Source: Natronococcus sp. A-GB7 (GTDB lineage: Archaea > Halobacteriota > Halobacteria > Halobacteriales > Natrialbaceae). Taken from it: 64,000 bases of DNA. The notes beneath the pieces were generated by a model. That model saw nothing but the letters and a program-made list of their open reading frames with translations. It made no database searches and was not told the origin of the DNA. The stretch spans positions 62,001 to 126,000 of the forward strand of contig NZ_JARUKV010000002.1 of assembly GCF_029688865.1 (NCBI RefSeq), given 5' to 3'. Positions within the stretch are counted from its first letter, which is position 1. The number at the start of each line of letters is the position of its first letter. Positions 15,952 through 38,117 of this stretch are shown here, piece after piece. A program made the translations under genes and the position numbers.

Positions 15952-16449
15952 ATGACAGGGAAATACATGACGTCCGAGAGCAACTTACCGGACGAGCCGG
16001 AGGGGGAGGAGATCCAGCTGCAGGTCAGCGACGAGCGGACCAAGGAAATCTTCAACATCCGCGCTCGTATCGACCGGAATCCGGACGAGCTGACCGATCC
16101 CGACCGGCTGACCGTTGTCAAGGGCCCACACGAGAACACCGAAGAGGAGTGGTACATCGACGTCCTCGAGACGGACCCGGACGACGGCATCGACAGGGAG
16201 CTGCTCGAGGCGACGATGTCCGCGATGGAAGACCAGTCGACGGTCATCAACACCCGTTCGAAGGAGGTCAAGACGCTGCTCCGATACCTTACCGAAACGG
16301 ACGAGTACGAGTCGGTCTCCGAGGCGAGCCGGACGATCATGCTGGAGTACCTTTCGGACAACTACGGCGAACTCGTCGAGGAGTATATCGACCTGAAGGT
16401 TCGATCCGAGCGAAGCGAGTTGGCCGACGAGCTGTACGAGTACAAATGA
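15952..16449 (+). CDS. Hypothetical acidic protein at head of UbiD operon
   Basis: 165 residues starting MTGKYMTSESNLPDEPEG; a second ATG 15 bases on is equally possible. No named domain recognised. The C-terminal part (YESVSEASRTIMLEYLSDNYGELVEEYIDLKVRSERSELADEL, residues about 120-162) resembles a ribbon-helix-helix tail or oligomerisation helix. The stop overlaps the UbiD start by ATGA, so it is translationally coupled to two UbiD-family genes and may regulate or scaffold them. Promoter candidate: T-rich segment around 15914-15920. Confidence 0.65.
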   Translation: MTGKYMTSESNLPDEPEGEEIQLQVSDERTKEIFNIRARIDRNPDELTDPDRLTVVKGPHENTEEEWYIDVLETDPDDGIDRELLEATMSAMEDQSTVINTRSKEVKTLLRYLTETDEYESVSEASRTIMLEYLSDNYGELVEEYIDLKVRSERSELADELYEYK

Positions 16450-17936
16450 CCGCGGACAGCCTCCGGCAATACCTCCAGACGCTGGAGACGAGGGGAGAGA
16501 TCCACCGGATCTCCGAGCCCGTCTCCTGGAACCTCGAGGCAAGCGCCGTTACGATGCTCGCGAACACGGAGGATAGCCGGATCCCGCTGTTCGAGGACGT
16601 CGACGGCGCCCGACTCGTCGGGGATCCGTACCGGGGCAGCCAGCGGCGGCCGTGGGATCGGATCGCGCTCGGACTGGGACTGCCGCCGGATCTCTCCTAC
16701 GAGGAGTACTACGAGGCAGTGATCGAACGGTTGAACGACCCGAAGTCGCCGACGACCGTCGAGGCCGACGATGCACCGTGCAAGGACGTCGTCGAGACCG
16801 GCGACGACGTGGATCTACTGGACTTTCCCTGGCCGTACATCCACGCGGGCGACGGCGGACGCTACTCGAACCTCCACACGCTGATCGCACCCGATATCGA
16901 CTCCGAGTGGGTCGACTGGTCGTACCACCGATCGATGATTCACGACGACGAGACGGCGAGCGTGCTGTTACTCGCCGGCGAGCAGACGCCGAACCTCTAC
17001 TACTACAAGTACGAACGGCGCGACGAGCCGATGCCGGTCGCGATCGCCGTCGGCGCCGAGCCCGCCGTACAGTACACCTCCGTCATGTGGATCCCGACCG
17101 GACGGGACGAGGCAGAGTTCGCGGGCGGGCTGAAAGGGGAGCCGATCGAACTCGTCGAGTGCGAAACGAACGATCTGCGGGTTCCGGCGACGGCCGAACT
17201 CGTCATCGAGGGTGAGATCGTCCCGAACGAGCGCCGCGACGAGGGGCCGTTCGGCGACTACTTCGGCTACGTCCACGGCCCGCGGCGGTCGATGCCGCTC
17301 TTGCGAGTGACGGGGATCACTCATCAGCAGGATCCGATCATCCCCTTCTGCGTCGAGGGAACCGGCGTCGGCTACTCCGAAAACTCGACCAGCTCCATGG
17401 AGGCCGGTTGTGTCGGTCCGGACGCGACGCTCGGCCTTCGCACCGCCGGGTTCGACGTCGAGTGCTGTGCACCTTGGAAGTCGACCCCGCGGACGGTATA
17501 CACGATCGCGACACCGTCGGACGAAAACGGCTACCTCCACGAGCTTGCGAACTTCATCTTTACTACCTGGGGAATGCTCCACGTCGACTTCTTCATCTTC
17601 GTCGACGCCGACGTCGATCCGCTCGACCAACGCCAGGTGCTCGAGGCGCTCACACTGCACGCGGATCCGGACGAAGACTTCCACCAGTTCGGGGTCGAAA
17701 CGATGCCGAAGGTGCCGCTGAACATCTACCAGACGCCGACCGAGAAGGGAGACGTCCAGACGGGAACGTCGAAAGCGAAGACGGCGAAAGCCTACATCGA
17801 CGCAACCAGCGACGGTAGCGCGACGCGAGATTCCGCCGATACCGAGCTCGAGTACCGTGCTCAGGAGATCCTCGAATCCGCAGGGGTCGACTCCGAGAAG
17901 CTCCCGTTCGTCGATCCCGGGGAGGGAGAGCGATGA
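16446..17936 (+). CDS. UbiD-family prenylated-FMN decarboxylase
   Basis: 496 residues. UbiD enzymes reversibly (de)carboxylate aromatic or alpha,beta-unsaturated acids using prenylated FMN made by UbiX. Seen here: the cofactor-side segment DWSYHRSMIHDDET with Arg162, and the catalytic acidic pair in RRDEGPFGDYFGYVHG (Glu266 and Asp271, the second acid being Asp as in E. coli UbiD). Length and the C-terminal segment MPKVPLNIYQTPTEKGDVQTGTSKAK are normal. ATGA overlaps on both sides tie it to the hypothetical gene upstream and the UbiD-like gene downstream. No UbiX is in the window. The substrate is unknown; an aromatic acid is likely from context. Confidence 0.88.
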   Translation: MTADSLRQYLQTLETRGEIHRISEPVSWNLEASAVTMLANTEDSRIPLFEDVDGARLVGDPYRGSQRRPWDRIALGLGLPPDLSYEEYYEAVIERLNDPKSPTTVEADDAPCKDVVETGDDVDLLDFPWPYIHAGDGGRYSNLHTLIAPDIDSEWVDWSYHRSMIHDDETASVLLLAGEQTPNLYYYKYERRDEPMPVAIAVGAEPAVQYTSVMWIPTGRDEAEFAGGLKGEPIELVECETNDLRVPATAELVIEGEIVPNERRDEGPFGDYFGYVHGPRRSMPLLRVTGITHQQDPIIPFCVEGTGVGYSENSTSSMEAGCVGPDATLGLRTAGFDVECCAPWKSTPRTVYTIATPSDENGYLHELANFIFTTWGMLHVDFFIFVDADVDPLDQRQVLEALTLHADPDEDFHQFGVETMPKVPLNIYQTPTEKGDVQTGTSKAKTAKAYIDATSDGSATRDSADTELEYRAQEILESAGVDSEKLPFVDPGEGER

Positions 17937-19339
17937 CGACCCTCGACGGGCAACTCGAGAACCTCCGAGAGACCGACGACCTAGTCTCGGTTGCCCAGCG
18001 GGTCCACTGGGACGCGACGGCCGCGTCGGTCGCCGCCGAAGCGACGCGACACAACTGTCCGGCGACCGTATTCGAGAACACGCCCGGCGAGGTACGACTC
18101 GCGAGCGGGGTCTTCGGCGGACCCGACCAGTTCACGAGCCTCGACCGACAGCCCTGGCAGCGAACCGCACAGGCACTCGGGTTCGATTCGGACTGTTCGT
18201 ACGAGACGATGATCGAACGGCTAGCTCGGCGAACGACCGATTCGGTCGACGATTCGTCGGACAGAGAGCCGGACGCGACATCTCTCGAGGACGTCGATCT
18301 CTACGGGTTGGGGTTGCCGACGACCGACGACGGCGAGCCGCTGATCGACCTCGGAATCCTGGTCGCAACGCGGGACGGCGCTACGACCTGGACGCCGATT
18401 CGGGGAGTCGCACAACGAAGCACGACGCTCCGGCTGACGATTCCGGAGGCGGCAGCCGACTGGATCGGACCACAAACCGACGCAAGCATCGTGCTCGGCG
18501 TCGGGGCCGCACCGCTCGTGGCGGCCATTCAAGGGTGGACACAAGACCGAATTACTCCCGACGTTCCCGGTCTGGCTTCGGGAATCAGCGACGTCTCGAT
18601 GGCGACCGTCGACTCCCGAGTCGTGCCGTCGGCTGCGGACGTCCGAATCGACGGTGAAATAACGATCGATCGAACGGCTCCCGATCCGAACGGATCGAAA
18701 TCGGCGTGGGAACGGACCTGCGAGACGACTGTAGTGGACGTACACGTCGATCGGATCGCGACTCGCGAGGACCCGGTCGTCGCGTTTACACCCCTCGGAG
18801 AACCCCTGACCGACGACCTCCATCTCGTGAGTCTCGTCGAGGCCGCACAGCTGTTCCGGCGCGTCAACGGCTACTGGGGCGTCTCGCCCGTCGAGTGGAT
18901 CCGCCTTCCCGTCGAGGCACGTCTCGGCCTCTGTCTCGTCTCGAGCGAGATCCTCTATGCGGGATTCGAGTGGCAGCTCGCGAACACGCTGTTTTCGTTC
19001 TCGAAGCTGTTCGACAAGGTGTTGGTTCTGGACGAGAACGCCGACCCAACGAACCTCGCCCGGTCGATCGACGACATGTGGGTGAAGGCCCACCCCGGAA
19101 ACGACTGGATCTTTAGCGAGCCGAACGCGCCGAGCGCGACCGCGCCACGGTACCGACAGGACGGCGAGACCGGTTCCAGACTCTACATCAACGCGACGTG
19201 GGACCCTCACTGGGACGAGGAGTACATCGCACCGCAGGTCACGTTCGAGACGTCGTTCTCGGAGAACGTCAAGGAGGCCCTCGAGGAGCGATGGGAAGAG
19301 TTAGGGCTCGACGAACTCGTCGGATCAAACAACCGATGA
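17933..19339 (+). CDS. UbiD-like protein lacking the catalytic acidic pair
   Basis: 468 residues, collinear with UbiD over most of its length: N-terminal LENLRETDDLVSVAQRVHWD, a region TTWTPIRGVAQR matching the Arg-containing cofactor segment, and C-terminal FSFSKLFDKVLVLDENADP. Where UbiD has EGPFG(D/E) this protein has TAPDPNGSKSAWE (residues about 248-260), so the catalytic glutamates are gone. It is well preserved otherwise, with no stop or frameshift, and is coupled by ATGA to both neighbours. I infer a non-catalytic partner or regulatory subunit of the upstream UbiD rather than a decaying copy. Confidence 0.8.
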   Translation: MTTLDGQLENLRETDDLVSVAQRVHWDATAASVAAEATRHNCPATVFENTPGEVRLASGVFGGPDQFTSLDRQPWQRTAQALGFDSDCSYETMIERLARRTTDSVDDSSDREPDATSLEDVDLYGLGLPTTDDGEPLIDLGILVATRDGATTWTPIRGVAQRSTTLRLTIPEAAADWIGPQTDASIVLGVGAAPLVAAIQGWTQDRITPDVPGLASGISDVSMATVDSRVVPSAADVRIDGEITIDRTAPDPNGSKSAWERTCETTVVDVHVDRIATREDPVVAFTPLGEPLTDDLHLVSLVEAAQLFRRVNGYWGVSPVEWIRLPVEARLGLCLVSSEILYAGFEWQLANTLFSFSKLFDKVLVLDENADPTNLARSIDDMWVKAHPGNDWIFSEPNAPSATAPRYRQDGETGSRLYINATWDPHWDEEYIAPQVTFETSFSENVKEALEERWEELGLDELVGSNNR

Positions 19340-20292
19340 CAGCAATCGTTCGCATTCCGATCGGCGGCGGAACGCCTGAAGGAACGAACAGCGCGTATCT
19401 CCTGCCCGATCGGGGCGTCCTCGTCGATCCCGGCCCGCCCTCCGAGCGAGCGTGGGACGATCTCCGGGAGGGAATTAGCGCGCACGCGACCCTCGAGGAC
19501 CTCGAGCACGTTCTCGTCACGCACTGGCACATCGATCACGCCGGGCTGGCCCACCGGCTCGCGGATCGGGCCGGGGCGTCGATTCATATCCACCGATCGG
19601 ACGCACCCCTGGTCGGTGACTACGCTGACGCGCGAACCAGCCGGCTCCGCCGGGACGAACGAACCCTCGAGCGATGGGGCGTTCCGAAGTCGGTTCGCGA
19701 GTCGGTGATCGATCGCGACGAGCCGTCCCCGCTTCCCGACGCGGCGCCGGTGAACCGACCCGACGACGGCGACGTCGTCGCTGGCGTCGAGTTCGTCCAC
19801 ACGCCGGGCCATACGAAGGGACACGCGTCCTTGCGGATCGACGGGACAATCCTCCTCGGCGATCTACTGTTGCCCACGTACACGCCGAACGTCGGCGGGA
19901 GCGACACGCGGCTCGACGACCCCCTCGGTGCGTATCTCTCCTCGCTCGAGCGTGTCGCGACCCACGAGGACGGGGAGCCGGGTCACGGAACGACGATGTC
20001 GATCGAGGAGAGCATCGAGGAGGTGCGGCGACACCATCGTAATCGGGCGGCGGAGTCCCTCCAAGCGCTCGTCGCGACAGACGAAGTATCGGCGACGCCG
20101 TGGACGGTCGCCCGTCGGCTGTTCGGCGAGATGGAGGGCGTTCACGCGAAGTTCGGCGCGGGCGAGGCGGCCGCACATCTGGTCCGCCTCGCCGAACTGG
20201 GAGTCGTCGAGCTGAGTACGGACGACGAGGGACGGATTCGGTTCCGACCCGCTGTCGACGCGTATCCGTCCGAGCTGTCGCTCGCGCCGTAA
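19336..20292 (+). CDS. MBL-fold metallo-hydrolase
   Basis: 318 residues. The metallo-beta-lactamase signature is THWHIDHAG (H-x-H-x-D-H), followed by FVHTPGHTKGHASL with the next His ligand and LLGDLLLP with the bridging Asp. The C-terminal 90 residues (TPWTVARRLFGEMEGVHAKFGAGEAAAHLVRLAELGVVEL) form a winged-helix-like domain, as in LACTB2-type hydrolases. Last gene of the UbiD operon, coupled by ATGA. It may hydrolyse a thioester or lactone intermediate of the same pathway; substrate unknown. Confidence 0.87.
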   Translation: MTAIVRIPIGGGTPEGTNSAYLLPDRGVLVDPGPPSERAWDDLREGISAHATLEDLEHVLVTHWHIDHAGLAHRLADRAGASIHIHRSDAPLVGDYADARTSRLRRDERTLERWGVPKSVRESVIDRDEPSPLPDAAPVNRPDDGDVVAGVEFVHTPGHTKGHASLRIDGTILLGDLLLPTYTPNVGGSDTRLDDPLGAYLSSLERVATHEDGEPGHGTTMSIEESIEEVRRHHRNRAAESLQALVATDEVSATPWTVARRLFGEMEGVHAKFGAGEAAAHLVRLAELGVVELSTDDEGRIRFRPAVDAYPSELSLAP

Positions 20293-20426: not shown

Positions 20427-21266
20427 TTACTCGTCGCCGGGCTCCTTGTCGCCGAGTTCGACGCCGAGGAAGTCCGGTTCGCGGTCGTTGAGGAAGGCGT
20501 CGACACCCTCCTCGGCGACGTCCGAACCGAGCAGGCGGTTCTGCAGTTCGCGCTCGTGAGCGAGCGCGTCCGAGAGCGGCATCTCGAGGCCCTCGTTGAC
20601 GGCCAGCTTGTTGTTGCCGACCGCGACGCTCGGCTTTTGGACGATCTCCGCGGCGAACTCCGTGGCCTTCTCCTCGACCTCCTCGGGCGGGTGGATCTCG
20701 TCGAAGATGCCGCGACCGGTCGCCTCCTGGGGCGTGAGCGTGTCGCCGGTGATCATCATGCGAAGCGCCTCCGAGCGGTCGATGTAGCGCGGAAGCAGCT
20801 GCGTGCCGGCCTCGCCCGCGATCATGCCCAGGTGGATCTCGGGCATACCGACGTTGTAGCTCTCGTCGTCGCCGACGTACCGGAAGTCACAGGCGAGTGC
20901 GAGCTCGAGGCCGCCACCCATGCAGTGGCCGTTGACGACGGCGATGAAGATGGTGTCGGTCGTCCGCATCTTCATGATGATCTCCTTGCTCGTCTGGCTC
21001 GCGTAGCCGACCTGCCGGCCCGACTTGTCCTGAAGCTCCTGGATGTCGAATCCGGTCGAGAAGAACTTCTCGTTCGAACTCCCGAAGATGACGGCGCGGA
21101 CGCCCTCGTCGAAGCGGACTGCTTCGACCGCGCGCTGAAGATCTAGCAGGACTTCGATGTCGTGTGCGTTTGCTGGCGGGCGGTCGAGACGCAGTTCGCC
21201 GATGTGGTCGTTGACCTCCGTCGTGAAGTACTCCAAGTCCAACTCGTCGAACGCTTTGAGTTCCAT
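20427..21266 (-). CDS. Enoyl-CoA hydratase (PaaF-like)
   Basis: 279 residues from the ATG at 21266. Crotonase fold: the oxyanion-hole strand FFSTGFDIQEL, first catalytic Glu in NGHCMGGGLELALACD and second Glu in YNVGMPEIHLGMI, so true hydratase chemistry is expected. It ends DREPDFLG like many beta-oxidation crotonases. It follows the paaA-D-B-C-zinc-ribbon cluster on the same strand after a 117-base gap and has its own TATA, so a PaaF-like role in phenylacetate beta-oxidation is plausible. Confidence 0.82.
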   Translation of the reverse strand: MELKAFDELDLEYFTTEVNDHIGELRLDRPPANAHDIEVLLDLQRAVEAVRFDEGVRAVIFGSSNEKFFSTGFDIQELQDKSGRQVGYASQTSKEIIMKMRTTDTIFIAVVNGHCMGGGLELALACDFRYVGDDESYNVGMPEIHLGMIAGEAGTQLLPRYIDRSEALRMMITGDTLTPQEATGRGIFDEIHPPEEVEEKATEFAAEIVQKPSVAVGNNKLAVNEGLEMPLSDALAHERELQNRLLGSDVAEEGVDAFLNDREPDFLGVELGDKEPGDE

Positions 21267-21288
21267 ACAGTGTCCCAATCACGCCCAC

Positions 21289-21298
21289 TATATATTAA
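21289..21298 (-). promoter_or_regulatory. TATA box of the PaaF-like gene
   Basis: On the minus strand TTAATATATA, centred about 27 bases before the ATG at 21266. This spacing predicts transcription starting at or next to the start codon, a leaderless mRNA. Confidence 0.6.
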
Positions 21299-21382
21299 TG
21301 TTTGGTTTTGTCCACTAATACGCAAAATATTTCGACATAATTCCATCTAAGCAGGGGAAAGCGACCACTCGGATCCGATTAT

Positions 21383-21562
21383 CTATCTTCCGGTGTCCGG
21401 ATTTTCACCGTCGTACTTGATGCGTTCGAACACGGTGTTGCAGTCGTTGCAGTAGTACTGGGTCTTCGAGATCTCGCTCCCGAACGCCGACTCCCGTTCC
21501 GTGTCGGTCGACTCACAGAACGGACACGACACCTGTGGCTCCGAAGCGTGGTCGGCCATCAT
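21383..21562 (-). CDS. Stand-alone zinc-ribbon part of PaaD
   Basis: 59 residues, MMADHASEPQVSCPFCESTD onward, with CPFC and CNDC pairs (YYCNDCNTVFERIKYDG). This matches the C-terminal zinc ribbon that ends bacterial PaaD, including the conserved SAFGS-x-x-SKTQYYC stretch. Here the DUF59 half of PaaD is a separate gene (22528-22923), so paaD is split and its parts flank paaB and paaC. Start and paaC stop overlap as TGATG. It probably helps assemble or stabilise the diiron epoxidase. Confidence 0.85.
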   Translation of the reverse strand: MMADHASEPQVSCPFCESTDTERESAFGSEISKTQYYCNDCNTVFERIKYDGENPDTGR

Positions 21563-22326
21563 CAGCTCAGAGCGAACTCCGCGTTGCGCTCACCGCGGAG
21601 CTGTTCGACGTCGTCCGCCGCGATCGCGTCCGCTCCGGTTCGACGCCGAGTCTCGTTCCAGTCGCCGAGTGCGGGGCCGTCCCAGTCGACGTCCTCGAGC
21701 GAAACGGCCGTATCGGCGAACAGCTCACGGTAGTGGTCGGCGAACGATCTCCGGATTTCCGAGATCGGTCGATCCGTGAACCCGGCCTCGTACAGCGGAT
21801 CCTCGCTCTCGTCGTAGGCCGCCGGTCCGATGAACGCAAGCGCCTGCGGGAGCGTCCGTTCTAGCGTGGCCTGGACGGTCTCGGGATCCTCCTCTGCGAG
21901 CGTCTCGAGGCGGGCGTCGTGGTACTCGAGGTGGAAGTACTCGTCCTCGCCCATCTTCGTGATCAGTCCCTCGAGTTCGTCCCGATCGATCGCGTCGAGC
22001 AGGTACCACGCGGCCCGGTCCGCGGGCGCGACCGAAGCGACGTACTCGGTCCAGTCGCCCTCGATCCGATCGAGGCAGGCGGCGTTAGCGAACTCGTCGG
22101 GATCGCGCTGGCCCTTGGTCCACTCGAGATCCCGCCCCTGCCCCTCGAGCTTGCTCGCGAGCTGTCGGACGTGGCCGATCTCCTCTTGAGCCGCGCTGGC
22201 GCCGCCGATGTCGTCCTCGAGCGAGGGCCCCGAGAGCGCCCACTGTGCGTACCGGTGTCCCAGGACGAGCTTGGTGTCCGTTATCGCTTGGACGTAGTCG
22301 ACTGCCGGCTCGGGCCAGTCACTCAC
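21562..22326 (-). CDS. paaC: Phenylacetyl-CoA epoxidase structural subunit PaaC
   Basis: 254 residues, helical ferritin-like. Segments VLGHRYAQWALSGPSLEDDIGGASAAQEEIGHVRQL and KMGEDEYFHLEYHDARLETLA are typical of PaaC. In bacteria PaaC pairs with PaaA as a structural subunit in the multicomponent monooxygenase that forms ring-1,2-epoxyphenylacetyl-CoA. Start overlaps the paaB end by 8 bases and the stop overlaps the zinc-ribbon gene, so translation is coupled through the cluster. Confidence 0.92.
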   Translation of the reverse strand: MSDWPEPAVDYVQAITDTKLVLGHRYAQWALSGPSLEDDIGGASAAQEEIGHVRQLASKLEGQGRDLEWTKGQRDPDEFANAACLDRIEGDWTEYVASVAPADRAAWYLLDAIDRDELEGLITKMGEDEYFHLEYHDARLETLAEEDPETVQATLERTLPQALAFIGPAAYDESEDPLYEAGFTDRPISEIRRSFADHYRELFADTAVSLEDVDWDGPALGDWNETRRRTGADAIAADDVEQLRGERNAEFALS

Positions 22327-22531
22327 CGGCGCTCACCCCGACGGTCGGTTTCGGGTCGTTGCTCACTCGCAGGTAGTCGTCCGCCCGGACGACCGCGAGC
22401 ATGTCCCAGTCTTCCTCGTCGAACGTGTTGTACGCGTACATTTTTGCCAGTTTATCGCTCTTTGCGGTGACGTTGCCGATGTGTTTGGTTTCGTCACCTT
22501 GGTTGATTCGTGCGAACACTTCGTACTTCAT
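22319..22531 (-). CDS. paaB: Phenylacetyl-CoA epoxidase subunit PaaB (short form)
   Basis: 70 residues: MKYEVFARINQGDETKHIGN, then KLAKMYAYNTFDEEDWDMLAVVRADDY. It matches the N-terminal three-quarters of bacterial PaaB (about 95 residues: YEVFVRGKQG..HVGS); the C-terminal tail is missing. PaaB bridges PaaAC heterodimers in the complex. The ATG overlaps the paaD stop (ATGA, 22528-22531). Confidence 0.9.
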   Translation of the reverse strand: MKYEVFARINQGDETKHIGNVTAKSDKLAKMYAYNTFDEEDWDMLAVVRADDYLRVSNDPKPTVGVSAGE

Positions 22532-22923
22532 AGGCTGATTCCTGCCTCGCGGATCTTGTTGCGAACCGATTCCGTGAGCATCTCCTTCGACCAGACGGGA
22601 TCCCAGACGACGTCGATCTCGACATCGTCGACGCCGTCGACGAGGGTGAGACAGCTCCGAACGTCGTTGTGGATCATGTCGTAGGCCGGACACCCCATAC
22701 AGGGGAACGACATCTCGACGGTAACGCGACCGTCGTCGTTGTCGACCCCGTAGATCATCGCTATCTCGACCAGACTCACCGGAATGTGCGGGTCCGGAAT
22801 CTCGTCGAGAACGTCCCACAGTTCCCGTTCGAACGGCGTCGCGTCGGCACGACGGCGTTCGACGAACTCGCTGGTCCGGGAGATATCGGTCGGTCCGCCA
22901 CCGTTTCGCTGTGCGCTGGACAT
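22528..22923 (-). CDS. paaD: PaaD DUF59 (MIP18-like) domain protein
   Basis: 131 residues. The DUF59 core is visible: LWDVLDEIPDPHIPVSLVEIAMIYGVDNDDGRVTVEMSFPCMGCPAYDMI, with the CMGCP motif of Fe-S/metal assembly proteins, then VEIDVVWDPVWSKEMLTESVR. It lacks the C-terminal zinc ribbon of bacterial PaaD, which is encoded separately at 21383-21562. PaaD is needed for maturation of the epoxidase. Lies 1 base after paaA and overlaps paaB. Confidence 0.9.
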   Translation of the reverse strand: MSSAQRNGGGPTDISRTSEFVERRRADATPFERELWDVLDEIPDPHIPVSLVEIAMIYGVDNDDGRVTVEMSFPCMGCPAYDMIHNDVRSCLTLVDGVDDVEIDVVWDPVWSKEMLTESVRNKIREAGISL

Positions 22924-22924
22924 G

Positions 22925-23845
22925 TTAGACCTCGACCTCGACGGTACCGGACTGGATCAGGTTGACGTACTTCTCGTTGGCCGGGCCGCGCGAGCGCCAG
23001 CGGTCCATCACGTCGGACCACGAGATCGACTCGTCGTAGCGCCACTCCTTGTTCTCCGCGTCGAACGCGATCGGCATGTCGTACTCGAGGACGTACTCGT
23101 CGGCGTCCGCGTCGTAGTGTGCCGGGACGTCGAGGTCCAGCTCGTTCATCAGCGGCAGGGTCCGCGAGAGCCAGTCCTGGCGGAGTTCGTCGTTGGACTT
23201 ACCCTTGATGCGGTACTCGAGCTGGTCGTCGTGTTTCTTCTTGTCGTCGGGCATCCCGAACCACTCGACGCCGATCGGGAACATCCAGTCGATCGCCTCC
23301 TGAAGCTGCTGTTTGGTCTTCTCGCTGTTGTTCGCGAGCCGGCGCATCCACGTCTCGCCGTGGCGAAGGTGGAACTGCTCTTCCTTGCTGACCTTCGTCA
23401 GCGCGCGCTTCCAGGGCGCGTAGGAGGTGTTCTCGTGGATGTCGCCCAGGAGAACGATCCCCGCGCGGTCGAAGATGCCGTGGGCCGTCACGAGCTCGGC
23501 GAAGTTATCGATATGCTGGTCGAACCCGTACGTGTTTCGGAACTCGTGGGGTTCGCGCTCGTAGATGAGCTCCTCGCGATCCTCTCCGAGGTCCTCGAGC
23601 AGCCGGTAGGCGATGTGTCCGTGGCCGAGTTCGTCCTGGATCACGCTGATACACGACGCGCGGGCGTCCAGCGACGGCGCGTTGAGCGACTGGTCGTAGT
23701 ACGCCGGCGCGCTCATCAGCTCGGTGTCGCCCGAGACCAGCAGGATCTGCTTGAGCGCCTTCTTGTAGCCGTCGGTCATCTCTTCGGTCGATTCGATCAT
23801 CCGCCCGTTCTGTAGTTCTTCCTTGAACTGCGCTTCTGAGGGCAT
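22925..23845 (-). CDS. paaA: Phenylacetyl-CoA epoxidase catalytic subunit PaaA
   Basis: 306 residues. Diiron ligands appear as ExxH pairs: DELGHGH (Glu72, His75) and KEEQFHLRHGE (Glu156, His159). PaaA inserts one oxygen into the aromatic ring of phenylacetyl-CoA. Length and the end VNLIQSGTVEVEV fit the family. First gene of a tight minus-strand operon paaA-paaD-paaB-paaC-zinc ribbon. Promoter with TATA at 23883-23890 and a GTATACGC element just upstream. Confidence 0.94.
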   Translation of the reverse strand: MPSEAQFKEELQNGRMIESTEEMTDGYKKALKQILLVSGDTELMSAPAYYDQSLNAPSLDARASCISVIQDELGHGHIAYRLLEDLGEDREELIYEREPHEFRNTYGFDQHIDNFAELVTAHGIFDRAGIVLLGDIHENTSYAPWKRALTKVSKEEQFHLRHGETWMRRLANNSEKTKQQLQEAIDWMFPIGVEWFGMPDDKKKHDDQLEYRIKGKSNDELRQDWLSRTLPLMNELDLDVPAHYDADADEYVLEYDMPIAFDAENKEWRYDESISWSDVMDRWRSRGPANEKYVNLIQSGTVEVEV

Positions 23846-23882
23846 AGTGGTAATCGTCCATCTACCCCTTCCTCGTCCAGGG

Positions 23883-23890
23883 TTATAATT
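23883..23890 (-). promoter_or_regulatory. TATA box of the paaA operon
   Basis: AATTATAA on the minus strand, predicting a start near 23860 and a leader of about 15 bases before paaA. A GTATACGC motif (23898-23905) lies directly upstream where the BRE and activator sites would be. Confidence 0.6.
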
Positions 23891-23897
23891 GTTTTCT

Positions 23898-23905
23898 GTA
23901 TACGC
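23898..23905. promoter_or_regulatory. GTATACGC operator-like element upstream of paaA
   Basis: The half-palindrome TGTATACGC occurs 8 bases beyond the paaA TATA and is followed by a degenerate second copy, GTGTATC. Another copy, CCGTATACGCC, is at 24008-24015 in the same divergent region. The same motif recurs at 25012-25034, 25170-25218 and 54968-54977. Confidence 0.5.
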
Positions 23906-24152
23906 TCAGTGTATCTATCGGCCGTTTCGCGGGGGTTTCGGCGTAGCGACTTCGCCTGTAGTCGACGGAGCGGCCCGCTGACGGTGGCTCTGGTTACCGG
24001 GTGGACCGTATACGCCTCTGAGCGGTGTTCGCAGCGACGCCTCGAACTGCACCCGTTCCGAGCGAAGCATCGTGTCCCGCGCGCCCCGACAGATAAGCTA
24101 TCCGACCGATACAACAGTGCCTTTTTTGGTAATCCGATCCAGATGGTAAGCT

Positions 24153-24650
24153 ATGACGTACGACGTCCGACAGGCGATCAGCGATGACGGCGAGGAGTTA
24201 CTAGAGCTATGGCACGGATTTACCGACCACCTCTCGGAGCACGACGACCGCTACCGACACAAGGAAAGCGCCGACGACCGGTGGCTCCAGTACTTCGAGA
24301 ATCAGCTCGTCGACTCGAAGTACGGGACGGTGTTCGTCGCCGAAGTGGAGGAGAGCGGCGAACTCGTCGGCGTCCTCGAGGCGCGGATCATGGGTAACCA
24401 CCCGATCTTCCGCCTGCAGGATCACGGCTACATCAACGGTCACTTCGTCAGAGAGGACCACCGTAGCGAGGGTGTCGGGACCGCGTTGCTCGAGGCCGTC
24501 CACGAGTGGTTCGACGAGTCCGATCGAGAGATCGACTTCTATCGCGTCGACGTGATCCAGGGCGACGATGACTCGGCCGGGTTCTACGAGTCCAACGAGT
24601 TCGAACCAGTCGAGCACGTTTTCGAAAAATCGATCGGATCGAACGGGTGA
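24153..24650 (+). CDS. GNAT-family N-acetyltransferase
   Basis: 165 residues. GNAT acetyl-CoA-binding motif A is VREDHRSEGVGTALLEAVHEWF (Q/R-x-x-G-x-G/A region) with a following beta strand IDFYRVDVIQGDDDSAGFYESNEFEPVEH. Substrate unknown. It diverges from the paaA operon and reads into the ferredoxin gene 4 bases later, so it is probably co-regulated with phenylacetate catabolism. Confidence 0.87.
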   Translation: MTYDVRQAISDDGEELLELWHGFTDHLSEHDDRYRHKESADDRWLQYFENQLVDSKYGTVFVAEVEESGELVGVLEARIMGNHPIFRLQDHGYINGHFVREDHRSEGVGTALLEAVHEWFDESDREIDFYRVDVIQGDDDSAGFYESNEFEPVEHVFEKSIGSNG

Positions 24651-24654
24651 CCCC

Positions 24655-24939
24655 ATGGTCGAAACCTACACAGTCGAGTTCGTCGACGAGGGGCGAACGC
24701 TCGAGATCCCGGAGAACCAGCCGATCCTGGAGGCGGCGGAGGAAGCGGGCCTCACACCGCCGTACCAGTGTCGGATGGGCGTCTGTGGCGTCTGCTGCGG
24801 GATGATCGTCGAGGACGGAGCGGTCGAACAGATGGAGGGAATGTTCCTCTCCGATAGCGAGAAAGAAGAGGGGTACGCTCTGACGTGTGTAGCGAAACCC
24901 CGGTCGGATCTTCGGATTCGAACCGACGAAAGCCCCTGA
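24655..24939 (+). CDS. Plant-type 2Fe-2S ferredoxin (PaaE-like electron donor)
   Basis: 94 residues. The cluster motif CRMGVCGVCCG (C-x4-C-x2-C) plus the distal Cys in YALTCVAKP ligates one 2Fe-2S cluster. In bacteria the epoxidase reductase PaaE is a flavin reductase fused to such a domain; here only the ferredoxin is present beside the paa genes, so the reductase must come from elsewhere. The start at 24655 lies 4 bases after the GNAT stop. Confidence 0.88.
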   Translation: MVETYTVEFVDEGRTLEIPENQPILEAAEEAGLTPPYQCRMGVCGVCCGMIVEDGAVEQMEGMFLSDSEKEEGYALTCVAKPRSDLRIRTDESP

Positions 24940-25011
24940 TCGAACGGGGTCGAACTGCGGTACGAATTTTTGTGTAACCCGATAGCTGAGGGACTCGGTC
25001 GTTCTCGGATA

Positions 25012-25034
25012 GCGTATACGCCTATCGTATACGC
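25012..25034. repeat. Paired GCGTATACGC palindromes
   Basis: GCGTATACG-CCTAT-CGTATACGC: two copies of a 10-base palindrome (25012-25021, and 25025-25034 with one mismatch) that also form a perfect 9-base inverted repeat about a 5-base centre. Confidence 0.75.
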
Positions 25035-25087
25035 AGACGGGATCGTCCTTTTCGGTCGGACAGGGAAGAAATTACTACCGTACTGCT

Positions 25088-25103
25088 GTAAAGTGCTGTT
25101 TAC
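25088..25103. promoter_or_regulatory. GTAAA-N6-TTTAC dyad
   Basis: GTAAAGTGCTGTTTAC has the same half-sites and the same 6-base spacing as the perfect palindrome at 9048-9063 upstream of the XRE operon. It may be a second binding site of that regulator, or chance (ten matching bases). Confidence 0.35.
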
Positions 25104-25169
25104 GAAAGTACCGGTGTAACGGCTCGGATCGAACGACGGGCGGTTTCGAGCCGAAAAGGGGGATGCGAG

Positions 25170-25218
25170 GCGTATACAACACCCGTATTTGGAGGGCGAT
25201 TACGGGAGTCGTATACGC
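25170..25218. repeat. 49-base compound dyad
   Basis: GCGTATAC-N4-CCCGTA-N13-TACGGG-N4-GTATACGC. Both arm segments (8 and 6 bases) are perfect reverse complements and the spacers are equal on the two sides, so the whole element is symmetric. It could fold as a hairpin or present four protein half-sites. Confidence 0.75.
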
Positions 25219-25254
25219 GTCGTCGGCTGTCGATTCGAGCGTCCGCTTTGCGTC

Positions 25255-25866
25255 TCAGTCGCGTTCCGCGGGCGGTCGCCGCACTCGCCGCGTGAGCGGC
25301 CGCCGCAGTTTCAGCGTCATCGACAGCTCGGAGAGTCCGCGCTCGACCACTTCGAACCCGATGTTCTTGTACACCGTGATCGCACGTTCGTTCCCGGTCG
25401 ACACCTCCAGCGCCAGTTCGTTCCCGTCTCTCTCGTCGGCGTAGGCGACGAGCTGTTTGATCATCTCGGAGCCAACGCCCTCGTTTTGGTACTCCTGGTG
25501 GATGTAAATGAGAAACTTCCATCTGTAGTCGACCGAGTCGGACGGGACGACAGCGACGTGGCCGATGGCCCGGTTGCCGTCGAACGCGACGAGGTTCCAC
25601 CCTCTCTCGGTCAGTCGATCCAACCAGTTTTCGATCTTCGAAACGCCGTTCGGTGGCAACCCCATACTCCGGCTGTACTGATCGAAATCGTCGTACATCC
25701 GGACGAGTGTATCCATATCGTCCGCTTCGTAGGGTCGAACGAGAAGCACAGTACCGCTTTTGCTCTCGAACCGAGGACACCGCGGCGGACAGTACGGCGT
25801 TCCGCGACACTCGGAGTTATCCCACGCGGTACAGGCGGCAGTCGCTCGGCTGTCGCTTGAGGACAT
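25255..25866 (-). CDS. GNAT-family N-acetyltransferase with N-terminal cysteine motif
   Basis: 203 residues from the ATG at 25866. The N-terminus carries a cysteine cluster CRGTPYCPPRCPRF before the GNAT domain; motif A is IHQEYQNEGVGSEMIKQLVAYA and motif B ALEVSTGNERAITVYKNIGFEVVERG. The cysteine prefix suggests metal binding or redox sensing. Substrate unknown. It lies downstream of the CoA-ligase start region but is transcribed separately, with its own promoter region 25867-25981. Confidence 0.8.
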   Translation of the reverse strand: MSSSDSRATAACTAWDNSECRGTPYCPPRCPRFESKSGTVLLVRPYEADDMDTLVRMYDDFDQYSRSMGLPPNGVSKIENWLDRLTERGWNLVAFDGNRAIGHVAVVPSDSVDYRWKFLIYIHQEYQNEGVGSEMIKQLVAYADERDGNELALEVSTGNERAITVYKNIGFEVVERGLSELSMTLKLRRPLTRRVRRPPAERD

Positions 25867-25981
25867 ATCGAGCTCTTCCGTTGGACGCGCAATAACTACT
25901 GCGCCGAACATGTTTCGACGCGACGGAAAACGGATGGCGGGGTATCGTCAGCGAAACGATGGTCGTTCGCGGATCGACCGA

Positions 25982-27640
25982 TCAGCTACCGTGCTCCTGT
26001 TCTCGGAGCTCGGTTCGGCGGATCTTTCCGGTCTCCGTTCGCGGGAGCGTCTCCGTAAACTCGACCTCACGAGGATACTTGTACGGAGCGAGCGTGTTCT
26101 TGACGTGGTTCTGAATCTCGGCGACGAGATCGTCGTCAGGAGTAGTGCCGTTCGATAGTACGGTAAACGCCTTCACGACCTCGCCACGTTCTTCGTTGGG
26201 ACTTCCAACGACGGCAACCTCCGAAACGGCTTCGTGTTCCTCGATAACCGCCTCGACCTCCGGACCGGGGATGTTGTACCCGCTCGAGATAATGAGATCG
26301 TCGCTCCGGGACTTGTACTCGAGACGTCCGTCCTCGCGCTGGACGAAGATGTCGCCGGGGATCGACCAGCCGTCCTCGGTCGTCGAACCCTCCTGTTTGT
26401 CGGGACGGTCCCAGTACTCGACACCGGTCGGGCCGCGAACCGCGAGGAGGCCGGCCTCGCCGCGCTCGAGTTCCTCGCCGGTGTCGGGATCGATGATCTT
26501 GCACTCGTATCCGGGGACGGGGAAGCCGGTGGCGCTCGGGTCGATCTCGCCGTCGTGGCAGTGACTGATGAAGATGTGAAGCATCTCCGTCGTCCCGATC
26601 CCGTCGAGCAGATTGATCCCGTACTCCTCTTTGAAGTTTTCGAACGTCGTCGGCGTGAGCGGCTCGCCCGCGCTGAGTCCGAGCCGAAGCGAGGAGACGT
26701 CGTACTTTTCGGGCCCCTCGGGGTAGTTCGAGAGGATCTGGTTGAACCCGGTCGGGATCGAACACAGCACCGAGACGCCGTGGTTTTCGACGGCCTCGAG
26801 CAGGTCACCCGGGCTCGCGTCCTCGACGAGGCTCGTGCTCGCGCCGAATCGGAGCGGGAACGTGACCAGATCGCCGTAGCCGTACGCGAACGGAAGCGGC
26901 GGGTTCCCGCCGAAGACGTCCTCCTCGGTCGGCTCGATGCAGTATCTGGCGTAGGTGTCCGCGGTCGCGAGCACGCTCTGATGACTGTGGATCGCACCCT
27001 TCGGACGACCGGTCGTCCCGCTGGTGTACAGCATCAACGCCAGATCCTCGCGCTCGGTCTCGTAGGCCTCGAGCTCGTCATCGGCTTCCTCGAGGAGCTC
27101 GTCGTAGCTGTGATGATCGTGATCGACGCCGTTGCGTTCGGCCACGATGACGTCCTCGACGGTCTCGAGGTTCGGCAGCGCGTTCTCGACCTCGTCGAGC
27201 AGGTCGTCGTAGACGACGACGGTCGTCGCCTCGGCGTTGTTGATAATGTAGTCGAGCTCCTTGGCCCGCAGCAGCTTCATCGACGGGAGCGCGACGCCGC
27301 CGATCTTCTGGACGGCGAGACACGTTACGATCGCCTCCGGACGGTTCGGGAACCGGACGACGACTCGATCGCCGGCCTCGACGCCGAGATCTCGGAGTGC
27401 GTTCCCCATCCGATCGACCTGTTCCTGGAGCTGCTCGTAGGTGATCGTTCGATCCTCGAAGTAGATCGCGACGTTGTCGCCGCGTCCCTCCTGGACGTGG
27501 CGATCGACGAGTTCCTCCGCGACGTTGATCCGTTGTGGGTAGTGGGCTTCCGGGGTCGGGTGGATGTAATCCGGAGCGTTCGATTCGTCCGGTAGATACT
27601 GCTCTGGGACGTTCGGCTGCATGTACGAGTAGTTCATCAT
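25982..27640 (-). CDS. Aryl/acyl-CoA ligase, benzoate-CoA ligase-like
   Basis: 552 residues of the ANL superfamily. Motifs: P-loop-like LMLYTSGTTGRPKGAIHSH, A5 DGIGTTEMLHIFISH, A8 DGWSIPGDIFVQREDGRLEYKSRSDDLIISSGYNIPGPEVE and the C-terminal catalytic Lys in PRTETGKIRRTEL. Length and motif style resemble benzoate/2-aminobenzoate-CoA ligases rather than PaaK. It activates a carboxylic acid with ATP and CoA. The TATA at 27651-27656 is so close that translation may begin at the internal ATG at 27622 instead of 27640. Neighbouring CoA-transferase and Liv importer fit uptake and activation of an aromatic acid. Confidence 0.87.
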   Translation of the reverse strand: MMNYSYMQPNVPEQYLPDESNAPDYIHPTPEAHYPQRINVAEELVDRHVQEGRGDNVAIYFEDRTITYEQLQEQVDRMGNALRDLGVEAGDRVVVRFPNRPEAIVTCLAVQKIGGVALPSMKLLRAKELDYIINNAEATTVVVYDDLLDEVENALPNLETVEDVIVAERNGVDHDHHSYDELLEEADDELEAYETEREDLALMLYTSGTTGRPKGAIHSHQSVLATADTYARYCIEPTEEDVFGGNPPLPFAYGYGDLVTFPLRFGASTSLVEDASPGDLLEAVENHGVSVLCSIPTGFNQILSNYPEGPEKYDVSSLRLGLSAGEPLTPTTFENFKEEYGINLLDGIGTTEMLHIFISHCHDGEIDPSATGFPVPGYECKIIDPDTGEELERGEAGLLAVRGPTGVEYWDRPDKQEGSTTEDGWSIPGDIFVQREDGRLEYKSRSDDLIISSGYNIPGPEVEAVIEEHEAVSEVAVVGSPNEERGEVVKAFTVLSNGTTPDDDLVAEIQNHVKNTLAPYKYPREVEFTETLPRTETGKIRRTELREQEHGS

Positions 27641-27716: not shown

Positions 27717-28490
27717 CTACGTCCAGAACCCGTCCGGATCGAACGTTCGGACCAGTTCGAGTTCCTCGGGCGTCGGTTCGGGCGTCGTCGTGACCGATCC
27801 CGCGCCGACGTCTTCGGCGGTGTTCAGCTGCCACGGGAAATCGTCGGTCACGTCCGCGACCTCGACGCCAGGATGGACGCTCCGGAGGTAGAGCTCGCCG
27901 GCGTCGTCGAAACCGAACGCGGCCTTCGAGGTGACGAGCGCGCTCGGTCCGCCGCCCGGCGCAGGGTGATTCCCGCGACCGGAGCCGTCGGTGGCGTAGC
28001 CCGGACTCGTCGCGTAGGTGACTTCCTCGGCGAACCGTCGCGGTTCGTGGGGCATGAGAAGCACCGTTCGGTCGGCCATACAGGCGATATCGCAGGCGCC
28101 GCCGCTCCCGGTAAGGCGGATATCGCGGTCACCGGCCTCGACCCAGGTCGTGTTCAGGTTGCCGTAGCGGTCGATTTCGGCGCCGCCGAGGAAGCCGACG
28201 TCGACCTCACCGCGCTGGAGGCGGGACATAATATCGATCATATCGGTCGTCGCGACGGCCCGGTTCAGGTTCGGGAGGTCGCACATCGTGTGGATGAATC
28301 CCTCGGCGGGAGCGTCGCGAACGACGCCGCTCTCGTAGACCGCCATCGCGTTCGGGGCGTGCGTGCTGACCGCAACCTGGAACGCGATCAGTGGCAAGCG
28401 CATCCCGACGAAGGCCGTGTCTCCGTCCTCGATCTCGCTCGCAGCGGCGGTGACCATCAGTTCCCGGTCCGTGTAGCTCTCACTGCCCAT
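27717..28490 (-). CDS. CoA-transferase subunit B (GctB/IpdB-like)
   Basis: 257 residues. Family I CoA-transferase beta fold: GDTAFVGMRLPLIAFQVAVS, VDVGFLGGAEIDRYGNLNTT with the conserved E-I-D-x-x-G-N-x-N block, and GSGGACDIA. Such pairs move CoA between acids or, in IpdAB, hydrolyse a ring ketone CoA ester. Overlaps the subunit A stop by 11 bases on the same strand. Downstream of it comes the CoA-ligase, so an alternative route of CoA activation for the same acids is likely. Confidence 0.85.
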   Translation of the reverse strand: MGSESYTDRELMVTAAASEIEDGDTAFVGMRLPLIAFQVAVSTHAPNAMAVYESGVVRDAPAEGFIHTMCDLPNLNRAVATTDMIDIMSRLQRGEVDVGFLGGAEIDRYGNLNTTWVEAGDRDIRLTGSGGACDIACMADRTVLLMPHEPRRFAEEVTYATSPGYATDGSGRGNHPAPGGGPSALVTSKAAFGFDDAGELYLRSVHPGVEVADVTDDFPWQLNTAEDVGAGSVTTTPEPTPEELELVRTFDPDGFWT

Positions 28491-29373
28491 ACTCCACCTC
28501 CGCGGCGACGGTCGGGTCGGTGATCGAAAGCTCCCGTTCGACGAGAGCGGCGTACTCCTCGCGGTCGTCGACGCCGTACACCCACTCGTCGGCCCACTCC
28601 TCGAAGGCCTCCCGCGTGTCGGTCCGTCGAGCGTACTCGAGGAAGTACTCGTTGTCCCTGTTGTAGCGGCCGGCGACCGGCGAGGGATGGGCGCCGAACG
28701 GACACTCGACGACGCTCGTCACCTGATCCCGCGTGATCGCGACGCGACTCGGGTCGCTCTTGATGACTTCGGGATCGACGACCTCCTCGGCGGTAACCAG
28801 AACGTTCTCGGCGGCGCCGACCGCGGGGTCGATGATTCCGGAGTTCCCCCAGAAATGGGCGTCCCCGTCCGGACTCGCGCGTTGGACGTGGACGATCGCC
28901 CAGTCCGGTTCGATCGCGGGAACGAGGACGATCCGTTCGTCGGTGAACGGATCCGTCGTCGTGACGAACAGATCGCTGTGCTCGAGGATATCGCTCCCGA
29001 GAAGCGATTTCGTTGGAAGGTAGGGAACGCCCATCGAACCGGCCTGTAAGGCGAGTGCGATACTGAAGTTCGAGTGGTCCTCGATCTCGACGGTTCCGTC
29101 TTCAACGGCCTTCCGGAATCGGTACCCCGTCCCCGCGCTGACGTTGCCGGCCCACGCCGCACGAACGCCGGACACCGCATTCCCGCCGATCAACTGATCG
29201 AAGAGCAGGTCGCTTATCGGGCCGATCAGGGTCAGACCGGAGCGACCCTGTCGAAGCAGTTCGTGTCCAGCGGCGAACGGGATCGCGTGCTCGAGGGCGA
29301 GACCGGTCGCGATCGAACTTCCGTCGTCGATCCGCGCTACGGCGTCGTCCAGACTCTCGGTACGTGCTGACAT
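28480..29373 (-). CDS. CoA-transferase subunit A (GctA/IpdA-like)
   Basis: 297 residues from the ATG at 29373. Segments IDDGSSIATGLALEHAIPFAAGHELLRQG, LTLIGPISDLLFDQLI and DWAIVHVQRASPDGDAHFWGN are typical of the alpha subunit of the glutaconate/IpdAB-type CoA-transferases. It lies head-to-head with the Liv importer operon and shares the 114-base promoter region 29374-29487. Confidence 0.85.
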   Translation of the reverse strand: MSARTESLDDAVARIDDGSSIATGLALEHAIPFAAGHELLRQGRSGLTLIGPISDLLFDQLIGGNAVSGVRAAWAGNVSAGTGYRFRKAVEDGTVEIEDHSNFSIALALQAGSMGVPYLPTKSLLGSDILEHSDLFVTTTDPFTDERIVLVPAIEPDWAIVHVQRASPDGDAHFWGNSGIIDPAVGAAENVLVTAEEVVDPEVIKSDPSRVAITRDQVTSVVECPFGAHPSPVAGRYNRDNEYFLEYARRTDTREAFEEWADEWVYGVDDREEYAALVERELSITDPTVAAEVEYGQ

Positions 29374-29396
29374 CCACCGCAACTATCCGGTACCAG

Positions 29397-36572: not shown

Positions 36573-38117
36573 ATGGAGCGAAAGAGCGCGTTCGACGCCC
36601 GGGCAGTCCTTCGCGTACCCGCGAGTTCGCGATCGATCGGGACGGACGCCGTGCGTGCAACCGTGAGCGAGAACCGTACCCAATCGCCGTCGATCGTCGC
36701 TGTCGGTCCGACCGGGATTGCAGCGCTCGATCCCTGCCTCGCGGCGACGCTCGGTGAGCGAACGGCGTTTTTCGCCGATCCCGACCAGGCGTGCACCGAG
36801 GACGTCGCCGAGTCGCTGGCACGGAACGAACTCCCGACGGCCGATGCGACGGCCGTCGTCGAACACGATCCCGGAGCGACGACGCTTCCGGGGGGCGAGG
36901 ACGCCCCGTTCGCCGTCGACCGGGGACGGGTACTGGGCGCCTGCGGATGGACCCGTCCGACCGCGATCGCCGACTACACCGCCAGGGGACCCGTCCTTGC
37001 CGACGGCGACGGGGGGGTGCTCGAGCGGGCCGTCGCGAGCGGCCTCCGGGGGCGCGGCCGAGGCGACATCGCGTCGGACGAACCGATCGGCGACTGCTGG
37101 CAAACGACCGCGAGCGCCGACGGCGAGCCCGTCGTCGTCGTCCACGCCAACGAAGCCGACCCGCGCGTGAACGTCGATTCGCTGTTGCTCGCTGCGGATC
37201 CGCTGGCCGTCCTCGATCCCGCGGTCGCGGTCGCCGACCGCGTCGGCGCCTCGGAGCTGGTCGTCTACTGTAACGAGGACGACGAGCGCGTCCACCGAAC
37301 TGCGGCCGACGCGGCCGCGCGTCTCGAGGAGGTCGTCGACGTCGATGTCTCGATCGACGTCGTCGCCGGCCCCGACGAGTACGCGGCCGGCGAGCCGACG
37401 ATGGCCCTCGAGGCCCTCGAGGGTGCGGAGCGGCTCGAGGCGCGACGCCGTCCGCCTGGCCCGGCCGAGTACGGACTGCATGGGCGTCCGACCGTGATCC
37501 ACACGCCGCGAACGCTCGCGCAGCTTCGGGCGATCGCGCTCGACGATGGCGTCGGTGGCGCCGACGACGACCCCGGAACGCGACTGTTCGAGGTCGGTGG
37601 CGACCTCGCCGACTCGACCGTCTTCGAGGTGTCGACCGACGGGGCCCTCGCGACGGCGATCGAACCGCTGGGAATCGACGAACCCGCGCTGGCGTGTGTC
37701 GGCGGCGTCTTCGGCGGGCTAACCGAGACGCTCGACGTCTCCGCGAACGCCACCGAGCTCGCGGCTGCGGGCCTCGGAACGAACGGCGCGATCGAACTGT
37801 TCAGCGAGGATCGCTGTCCCGTCGCGCTCGCGGGACGGCGCGCGGCCTTCGCCCGCGAGACGAACTGCGGTCGCTGCGTGCCCTGCCGCGAGGGAGCGAC
37901 GCAGCTGACCGAGCTGCTCCGGTCGACCTACGAGCGCGAGGACGCGATCGACGAGGCCCGAGAGCTGGCCCGCGTGATGGAGCGCTCGAGCCTCTGTGGG
38001 TTCGGTCGGGATGCCGCTCGGCCGACGACGACGGCGCTCGAGGCGTTCGAACCCGAGTTCGTCGCCCACGCGAACGGACGCTGTCCCGCCGGCGAGTGTA
38101 ACGGAGGGAACCCATGA
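36573..38117 (+). CDS. NuoF/FdhB-like subunit with degenerate NADH/FMN site
   Basis: 514 residues. The C-terminal NuoF 4Fe-4S module is intact (NCGRCVPCREG, Cys432/435/438, then SLCGFG, Cys475). The N-terminal part is collinear with NuoF, but the FMN/NADH glycine loop reads SGLRGRGRGDIASD (usual GRGGAGFPTG) and the acidic NADEGEPG segment reads NEADPRVN. It is coupled to the FDH catalytic gene by ATGA. I infer an electron-transfer subunit that may no longer bind NADH. Confidence 0.78.
   Translation: MERKSAFDARAVLRVPASSRSIGTDAVRATVSENRTQSPSIVAVGPTGIAALDPCLAATLGERTAFFADPDQACTEDVAESLARNELPTADATAVVEHDPGATTLPGGEDAPFAVDRGRVLGACGWTRPTAIADYTARGPVLADGDGGVLERAVASGLRGRGRGDIASDEPIGDCWQTTASADGEPVVVVHANEADPRVNVDSLLLAADPLAVLDPAVAVADRVGASELVVYCNEDDERVHRTAADAAARLEEVVDVDVSIDVVAGPDEYAAGEPTMALEALEGAERLEARRRPPGPAEYGLHGRPTVIHTPRTLAQLRAIALDDGVGGADDDPGTRLFEVGGDLADSTVFEVSTDGALATAIEPLGIDEPALACVGGVFGGLTETLDVSANATELAAAGLGTNGAIELFSEDRCPVALAGRRAAFARETNCGRCVPCREGATQLTELLRSTYEREDAIDEARELARVMERSSLCGFGRDAARPTTTALEAFEPEFVAHANGRCPAGECNGGNP

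Follow-up and report, generated by a model that had tools for sequence, protein, structure and literature searches.

In the phenylphosphate carboxylase of Thauera aromatica and the phenylphosphoamidate carboxylase of D. anilini, both UbiD-like subunits are needed together, and in the case of D. anilini FMN was reported to be sufficient for activity despite a ubiX-like gene (PMC7500099). The T. aromatica enzyme possesses small extra subunits in addition, and the phenylphosphate-type pathways are anaerobic. The clusters of AbcDA (anaerobic benzene) and of the naphthalene carboxylase each contain more than one carboxylase subunit gene; the naphthalene carboxylase subunits are UbiD-like, and a CoA ligase lies near AbcDA (PMC13101534, PMC12016498), the cluster of which also includes a ubiX-like gene. 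For the naphthalene carboxylase, the use of prenyl-FMN (prFMN) has been proposed, and further ATPase-like and linker proteins take part (PMC10570749). In VdcCD and LpdD, a UbiD is accompanied by a small protein unrelated to it (PMC8379154, PMC10865409); they have no second UbiD-like subunit, and their prFMN is supplied by UbiX, described as the single flavin prenyltransferase, highly conserved, that accompanies UbiD enzymes (PMC10865409). No paper joining "UbiD" and "pseudoenzyme" was found in the literature search, and the papers found on haloarchaea and UbiD, judged by titles and abstracts, do not treat the gene pair described below.

The operon and its described counterparts

The window, a stretch of 64,000 nucleotides, derives from the 4.88 Mb genome of a haloarchaeon, Natronococcus sp. 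A-GB7. On its forward strand, four genes (g1, u1, u2 and mbl) occupy positions 15952-20292, and consecutive genes overlap in ATGA at 16446, 17933 and 19336, in agreement with the original prediction of four ATGA-coupled genes. The features are as follows.

15952..16449, + strand: g1, 165 aa, no family match; candidate small subunit or accessory protein
16446..17936, + strand: u1, 496 aa, UbiD-family protein; predicted catalytic subunit
16914..16916, + strand: D157 of u1, aligned with Asn168 of Fdc1
17241..17258, + strand: EGPFGD motif of u1 (E266-D271), from the phmmer alignment to Fdc1; acids invariant
17933..19339, + strand: u2, 468 aa, UbiD twin that lacks the catalytic residues; predicted structural subunit
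18683..18697, + strand: D251-P-N-G-S255 of u2, remnant of EGPFG(D/E), from the alignment of u1, u2 and relatives
18818..19336, + strand: C-terminal oligomerisation domain of u2 (residues 296-468), its most constrained region
19336..20292, + strand: mbl, 318 aa, MBL-fold hydrolase (PF00753)
20427..27640, - strand: enoyl-CoA hydratase, PaaC-, PaaD- and PaaA-like epoxidase parts and a benzoate-CoA-ligase-like enzyme, from NCBIfam matches below cut-off

The catabolic cluster at 20427..27640 is divergent from the operon, with some + strand genes interspersed. Across the salt-loving archaea the operon comprises three or four genes, and the host genome encodes no UbiD besides u1 and u2.

Like the phenylphosphate-type carboxylases, the operon encodes two UbiD-like proteins, the complex of which we infer from the genes, and g1 may be compared with the small extra subunits of the T. 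aromatica enzyme. However, the alpha and beta equivalog models of phenylphosphate carboxylase do not recognise the pair: TIGR02723 (cut-off 565) gives u1 158 bits, and TIGR02724 (cut-off 469) gives u2 only 23 bits. Unlike in the phenylphosphate carboxylase system, moreover, a phosphatase-type gene is absent from the operon, and the surrounding cluster carries oxygenase-like genes. The u1-u2 genomes also differ from AbcDA in the ubiX-like gene and from the naphthalene carboxylase in the ATPase-like and linker proteins.

The pairing of u1 with g1 recalls VdcCD and LpdD, but g1 has no detectable relation to their small partners. Searches of Pfam and NCBIfam with E values up to 1 return nothing for it. 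Its AF2 model (pLDDT 77) begins with five beta strands (residues 4-74) and continues in helices (residues 82-163), and no PDB fold matches this model with E < 0.1; an assignment of g1 as a VdcCD/LpdD-type accessory protein was consequently abandoned. The gene lies upstream of u1-u2 at nearly all loci. It is not universal, since in genome G213, which holds two u1-u2 pairs (loci L059 and L066), only a 135-aa relic of g1 (50.7 bits) exists at L059 and no match at L066; from these loci, g1 may be dispensable or shared. As a whole, the probable role of g1 is that of an accessory small subunit in the u1-u2 enzyme.

The predicted catalytic protein u1 and its degenerate twin u2

All three UbiD domains are recognised in u1 above their curated cut-offs (PF01977, 228 bits; UbiD_N, 53.4 bits; UbiD_C, 44.5 bits). 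In the phmmer alignment, R162, E266 and D271 of u1 correspond to R173, E277 and E282 of Fdc1, and E222 occupies the position of Fdc1 E233. These four residues are invariant in 46 of 46 u1 sequences, so that the Glu-Arg-Glu/Asp catalytic triad is present throughout and the predicted UbiD with Glu266 and Asp271 is confirmed. The pairwise omega of u1 is 0.07-0.22, and its conservation reaches a maximum in the cofactor domain, where 61 of 202 residues are invariant. Within the operon, u1 would thus be the protein supplying the catalytic Glu-Arg-Asp site.

The cofactor site of u1 has nevertheless changed. In Fdc1, Asn168 helps to coordinate the metal by which the prFMN phosphate is held. At this position the 46 u1 sequences contain Asp (29), Arg (10), Ser (3), Thr (2), Asn (1) and His (1); the Asn is accordingly replaced in 45 of 46, versus Asn in 21 of 23 other UbiDs (22 from UbiX-bearing haloarchaea and the E. 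coli UbiD), the remaining 2 of which likewise lack it. Of the two residues of the metal site, Asn168 and Glu233 in Fdc1, u1 has therefore kept the Glu and retained the Asn in a single sequence. This is no proof that prFMN has been lost, as an Asp could still hold the metal and E222 remains. The loss of His191 in u1 was dropped as an argument, because that column varies among other UbiDs and shifts with the alignment.

In the case of u2, the UbiD fold is recognised by UbiD_N (48 bits) and UbiD_C (46 bits), both over cut-off, and the best phmmer and Foldseek matches are UbiD-family structures; the cofactor domain PF01977 reaches 19.4 bits, under its cut-off of 23.3. The AF2 model built from 14 sequences is poor (pLDDT 47.8), which accounts for the low TM score of 0.24 in Foldseek, where UbiD structures match with E values down to 5.6e-14. 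Among 33 u2 sequences, the positions of E277, E282, E233 and N168 are unconserved, no conserved acid exists at the E277 or E282 position, and the R173 position contains Arg in 20 and His in 9. The alignment verifies that in this 468-residue protein EGPFG(D/E) has become DPNGS, at D251 to S255, and after the former motif W259-E260 is invariant. A check for another acid filling the site found the invariant E260 close by in the sequence and the Arg partner not kept, the model being poor as given above.

The reading frame of u2 is open in 67 of 67 genomes, as expected from the earlier observation of a gene without stops; the sole stop flagged in a u2 match, in genome G075, falls outside the gene, which is a 457-aa ORF. 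Simultaneously, u2 is under purifying selection, with a pairwise omega of 0.11-0.31, and the constraint is concentrated at the C-terminus: omega is 0.06-0.14 in the oligomerisation domain versus 0.32-0.33 in the central domain, and 40 of the 53 invariant residues lie within the 173 residues of the former (296-468). If u2 were a decaying duplicate of u1, its lack of any catalytic residue and its greater variability (mean pairwise difference of 0.52 versus 0.33 for u1) would be accounted for, but not the open frames, the omega well below 1 or the 40 invariant residues in one domain; furthermore, the tree makes u2 older than the haloarchaea. Selection and distribution together refute decay, which is left with a negligible probability.

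Of 292 haloarchaeal genomes, 67 carry u1 and u2 as an intact, linked pair, which, together with omega, bears out the claim that u2 is selected and not decaying. Genomes G218, G245 and G286 are excluded from the 67, because their weak u2 matches are ordinary UbiDs. In the 67 genomes u2 always occurs with u1, adjacent wherever inspected, and in a first scan of named genomes all 13 haloarchaea with u2 had it beside u1 and g1, with mbl in 11. Two genomes of the same genus, G248 and G264, have lost u1 and u2 jointly; an absent twin in close relatives was looked for as a possible refutation, which was rejected here, as u1 goes together with u2. The distance matrices of u1, u2 and g1 correlate with r of 0.88-0.94, in part because of common host history. 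At locus L084 (G195:C16), u1 is situated at one contig end and u2 near the opposite end of the same contig, which may well be a circular plasmid opened within the operon.

The two proteins thus concentrate their invariant residues in different domains, u1 in the cofactor domain and u2 in the oligomerisation domain, a pattern that fits a catalytic and a structural subunit. In such an enzyme, u2 would be a UbiD fold turned into a non-catalytic partner and retained in the complex via its oligomerisation domain, and the pair would be a clear example of co-evolution between a UbiD subunit with an active site and a degenerate one. Alternatively, u2 may stand outside any u1 complex and be merely co-transcribed, with a separate role such as that of a substrate or metabolite sensor. 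The fast-evolving central domain (omega as given above) and the invariance of W259-E260 despite the lost catalytic site would suit such a role. However, the strict linkage, the ATGA coupling and the focus of constraint on the oligomerisation domain argue against it, as does the same adjacency outside the haloarchaea, in genome G494 and probably, with a small gene between, in G466; a separate role for u2 is accordingly considered improbable.

Absence of UbiX and the cofactor of u1

To our knowledge, UbiX alone makes the prenylated flavin cofactor of UbiD enzymes. It is found over cut-off in 0 of the 67 genomes with the pair, and among the 292 haloarchaeal genomes it occurs in 23, precisely those 23 that possess a UbiD but not the pair. 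In the other Halobacteriota, outside the haloarchaea, UbiX is present in 104 of 104 genomes with UbiD, giving 127 of 127 for all Halobacteriota with other UbiDs. The association of the pair with UbiX absence has a Fisher p of 6e-22, which overstates the evidence because the genomes are related; both states, the pair without UbiX and the presence of UbiX, also exist inside the single genera g27 and g40. The host genome itself has no UbiX match, and Haloferax volcanii, a control genome, yielded neither a UbiX nor a UbiD match. A search with the flavoprotein superfamily yielded one strong match there, a 408-aa frame of CoaBC size, and one strong match in each of 31 pair genomes, with a CoaBC-size frame of about 400 aa and few length exceptions. 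In 4 control genomes with UbiX, a second strong superfamily match was present.

These results divide the original prediction of a hetero-oligomeric prenyl-FMN (de)carboxylase. The linkage and conservation pattern of u1 and u2 fit a structural subunit, and a u1-u2 hetero-oligomer is plausible by inference from the sequences. The prenyl-FMN part, on the other hand, is left without support by the absence of UbiX from every pair genome, versus its presence in every genome with other UbiDs, and by the replaced Asn168 position. The reading that we prefer, with moderate confidence, is that the operon encodes a heteromeric UbiD-fold enzyme with u1 as its catalytic and u2 as its structural subunit, which would not use UbiX-made prFMN and would act in a CoA-dependent acid route. 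As the cofactor site of u1 has changed, its cofactor would most likely be another one (plain FMN, another flavin or a metal), or none.

The main competing explanation takes u1-u2 for an ordinary heteromeric (de)carboxylase that depends on prFMN, which the haloarchaea would make with a flavin prenyltransferase not homologous to UbiX or acquire by salvage. In every u1, E222 and the Glu-Arg-Asp site are invariant, as such an enzyme would have them, and the UbiD family is described as prFMN-dependent (PMC10865409, PMC12016498). Against this, the conserved metal-ligand Asn has been lost from u1, salvage is unlikely across 67 genomes of many genera, and no gene besides g1, u1 and u2 is common to all neighbourhoods. 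As the missing prenyltransferase, g1 found no support, since a flavin-enzyme signature is absent from it. A prFMN-dependent u1-u2 enzyme is therefore regarded as rather unlikely, though the strongest of the competing explanations.

In either case, UbiDs that keep the triad in 67 genomes without UbiX break the rule of UbiX-UbiD association. Such a u1 implies UbiD chemistry that dispenses with prenyl-FMN, or else another way of making this cofactor; either is testable in cultured haloarchaea. It appears fairly probable that the haloarchaea harbour the first naturally UbiX-independent branch of UbiD, with live and dead subunits and with a non-prFMN cofactor or an undiscovered prFMN synthase; within the literature searched, the UbiX-free cofactor and the unrecognised prenyltransferase would both be new. 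In addition, the annotation "UbiD family decarboxylase", which such genes carry in Haloarcula and on pHTUR01, may be misleading for u1 and u2 alike.

Relatives outside the haloarchaea and genomic neighbourhoods

In G494, a genome of the Halobacteriota with UbiX, a u1-like protein, a u2-like protein and a small protein are encoded in a row, followed by a CoA ligase. The tree places the u1-like protein with u1 (99/92) and the adjacent u2-like protein with u2 (100/96), a placement to be taken with some caution because of the long branches. The u1-like protein retains Asn168; the u2-like protein has lost three site residues and kept the equivalents of R173 and E277. In G466, where UbiX is also present, a u1-like UbiD that retains Asn168 is followed by a small protein and then by a degenerate UbiD, which is incomplete because the contig ends within it. 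With the small protein of the G494 set g1 shares marginal similarity (E 0.06-0.07), and with that of G466 none was found.

Both gene sets thus resemble the haloarchaeal operon in a u1-like, a u2-like and a small protein, and differ from it by UbiX and Asn168. Since UbiX exists in these genomes beside a degenerate twin, the pairing of a live with a dead UbiD predates the loss of UbiX, and UbiX-bearing intermediates of the pairing exist in other archaea. With such relatives, the haloarchaeal operon has the appearance of an ancient heteromeric UbiD enzyme in which UbiX-made prenyl-FMN was given up or its source replaced. Under the preferred reading, the system would be derived from a UbiX-dependent archaeal two-UbiD enzyme, of which the haloarchaeal version works without UbiX-made prenyl-FMN.

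Further tandem UbiD genes with a divergent second copy were observed in G466 (L126, 7842-10704) and G474 (L124, 6356-9203), possibly another pairing of a live and a degenerate UbiD. At loci L129, L130, L132 and L133, UbiD genes are followed by a conserved protein of about 235 aa with the motif KW(I/V/A)GFD(Y/F)GQC, which is reminiscent of a phosphatase subunit.

Around u1-u2, two types of neighbourhood recur. Type A, found in the host and on pHTUR01 of Haloterrigena turkmenica, contains mbl, divergent PaaA/B/C/D-like parts, enoyl-CoA hydratases and a benzoate-CoA-ligase-like enzyme, and a formate dehydrogenase is nearby at both of these loci. Type B, as in Haloarcula, contains an AMP ligase, an acyl-CoA dehydrogenase, a biotin-dependent carboxylase and a MaoC hydratase. 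The neighbours of both types point to CoA-dependent acid catabolism, the route in which the u1-u2 enzyme would act. The predicted MBL hydrolase is recovered as such in mbl (PF00753, 66.5 bits, residues 15-208), with 92 bits against NF053820, under the cut-off of 525; its proposed winged-helix tail has no Pfam match. The gene adjoins u1-u2 in one haloarchaeal group only, and no mbl match was found at the loci of the biotin-carboxylase type.

In the window, the genes at 21562-23845 score below the curated NCBIfam cut-offs as PaaA-like (136 versus 280 bits), PaaC-like (42 versus 133) and PaaD-like (113 versus 180), which leaves the epoxidase substrate unsure; they perhaps encode a divergent haloarchaeal epoxidase with a substrate other than phenylacetyl-CoA. 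At 27717-29382, two overlapping genes of the CoA-transferase fold match Pfam CoA_trans and no NCBIfam model; ring-opening hydrolases with this fold exist. Farther downstream, at 36573-41326, lies a pair of a NuoF-like and a molybdopterin formate-dehydrogenase-like gene. Release of formate would be consistent with a Box-like route that cleaves the ring of an aryl-CoA epoxide within this cluster.
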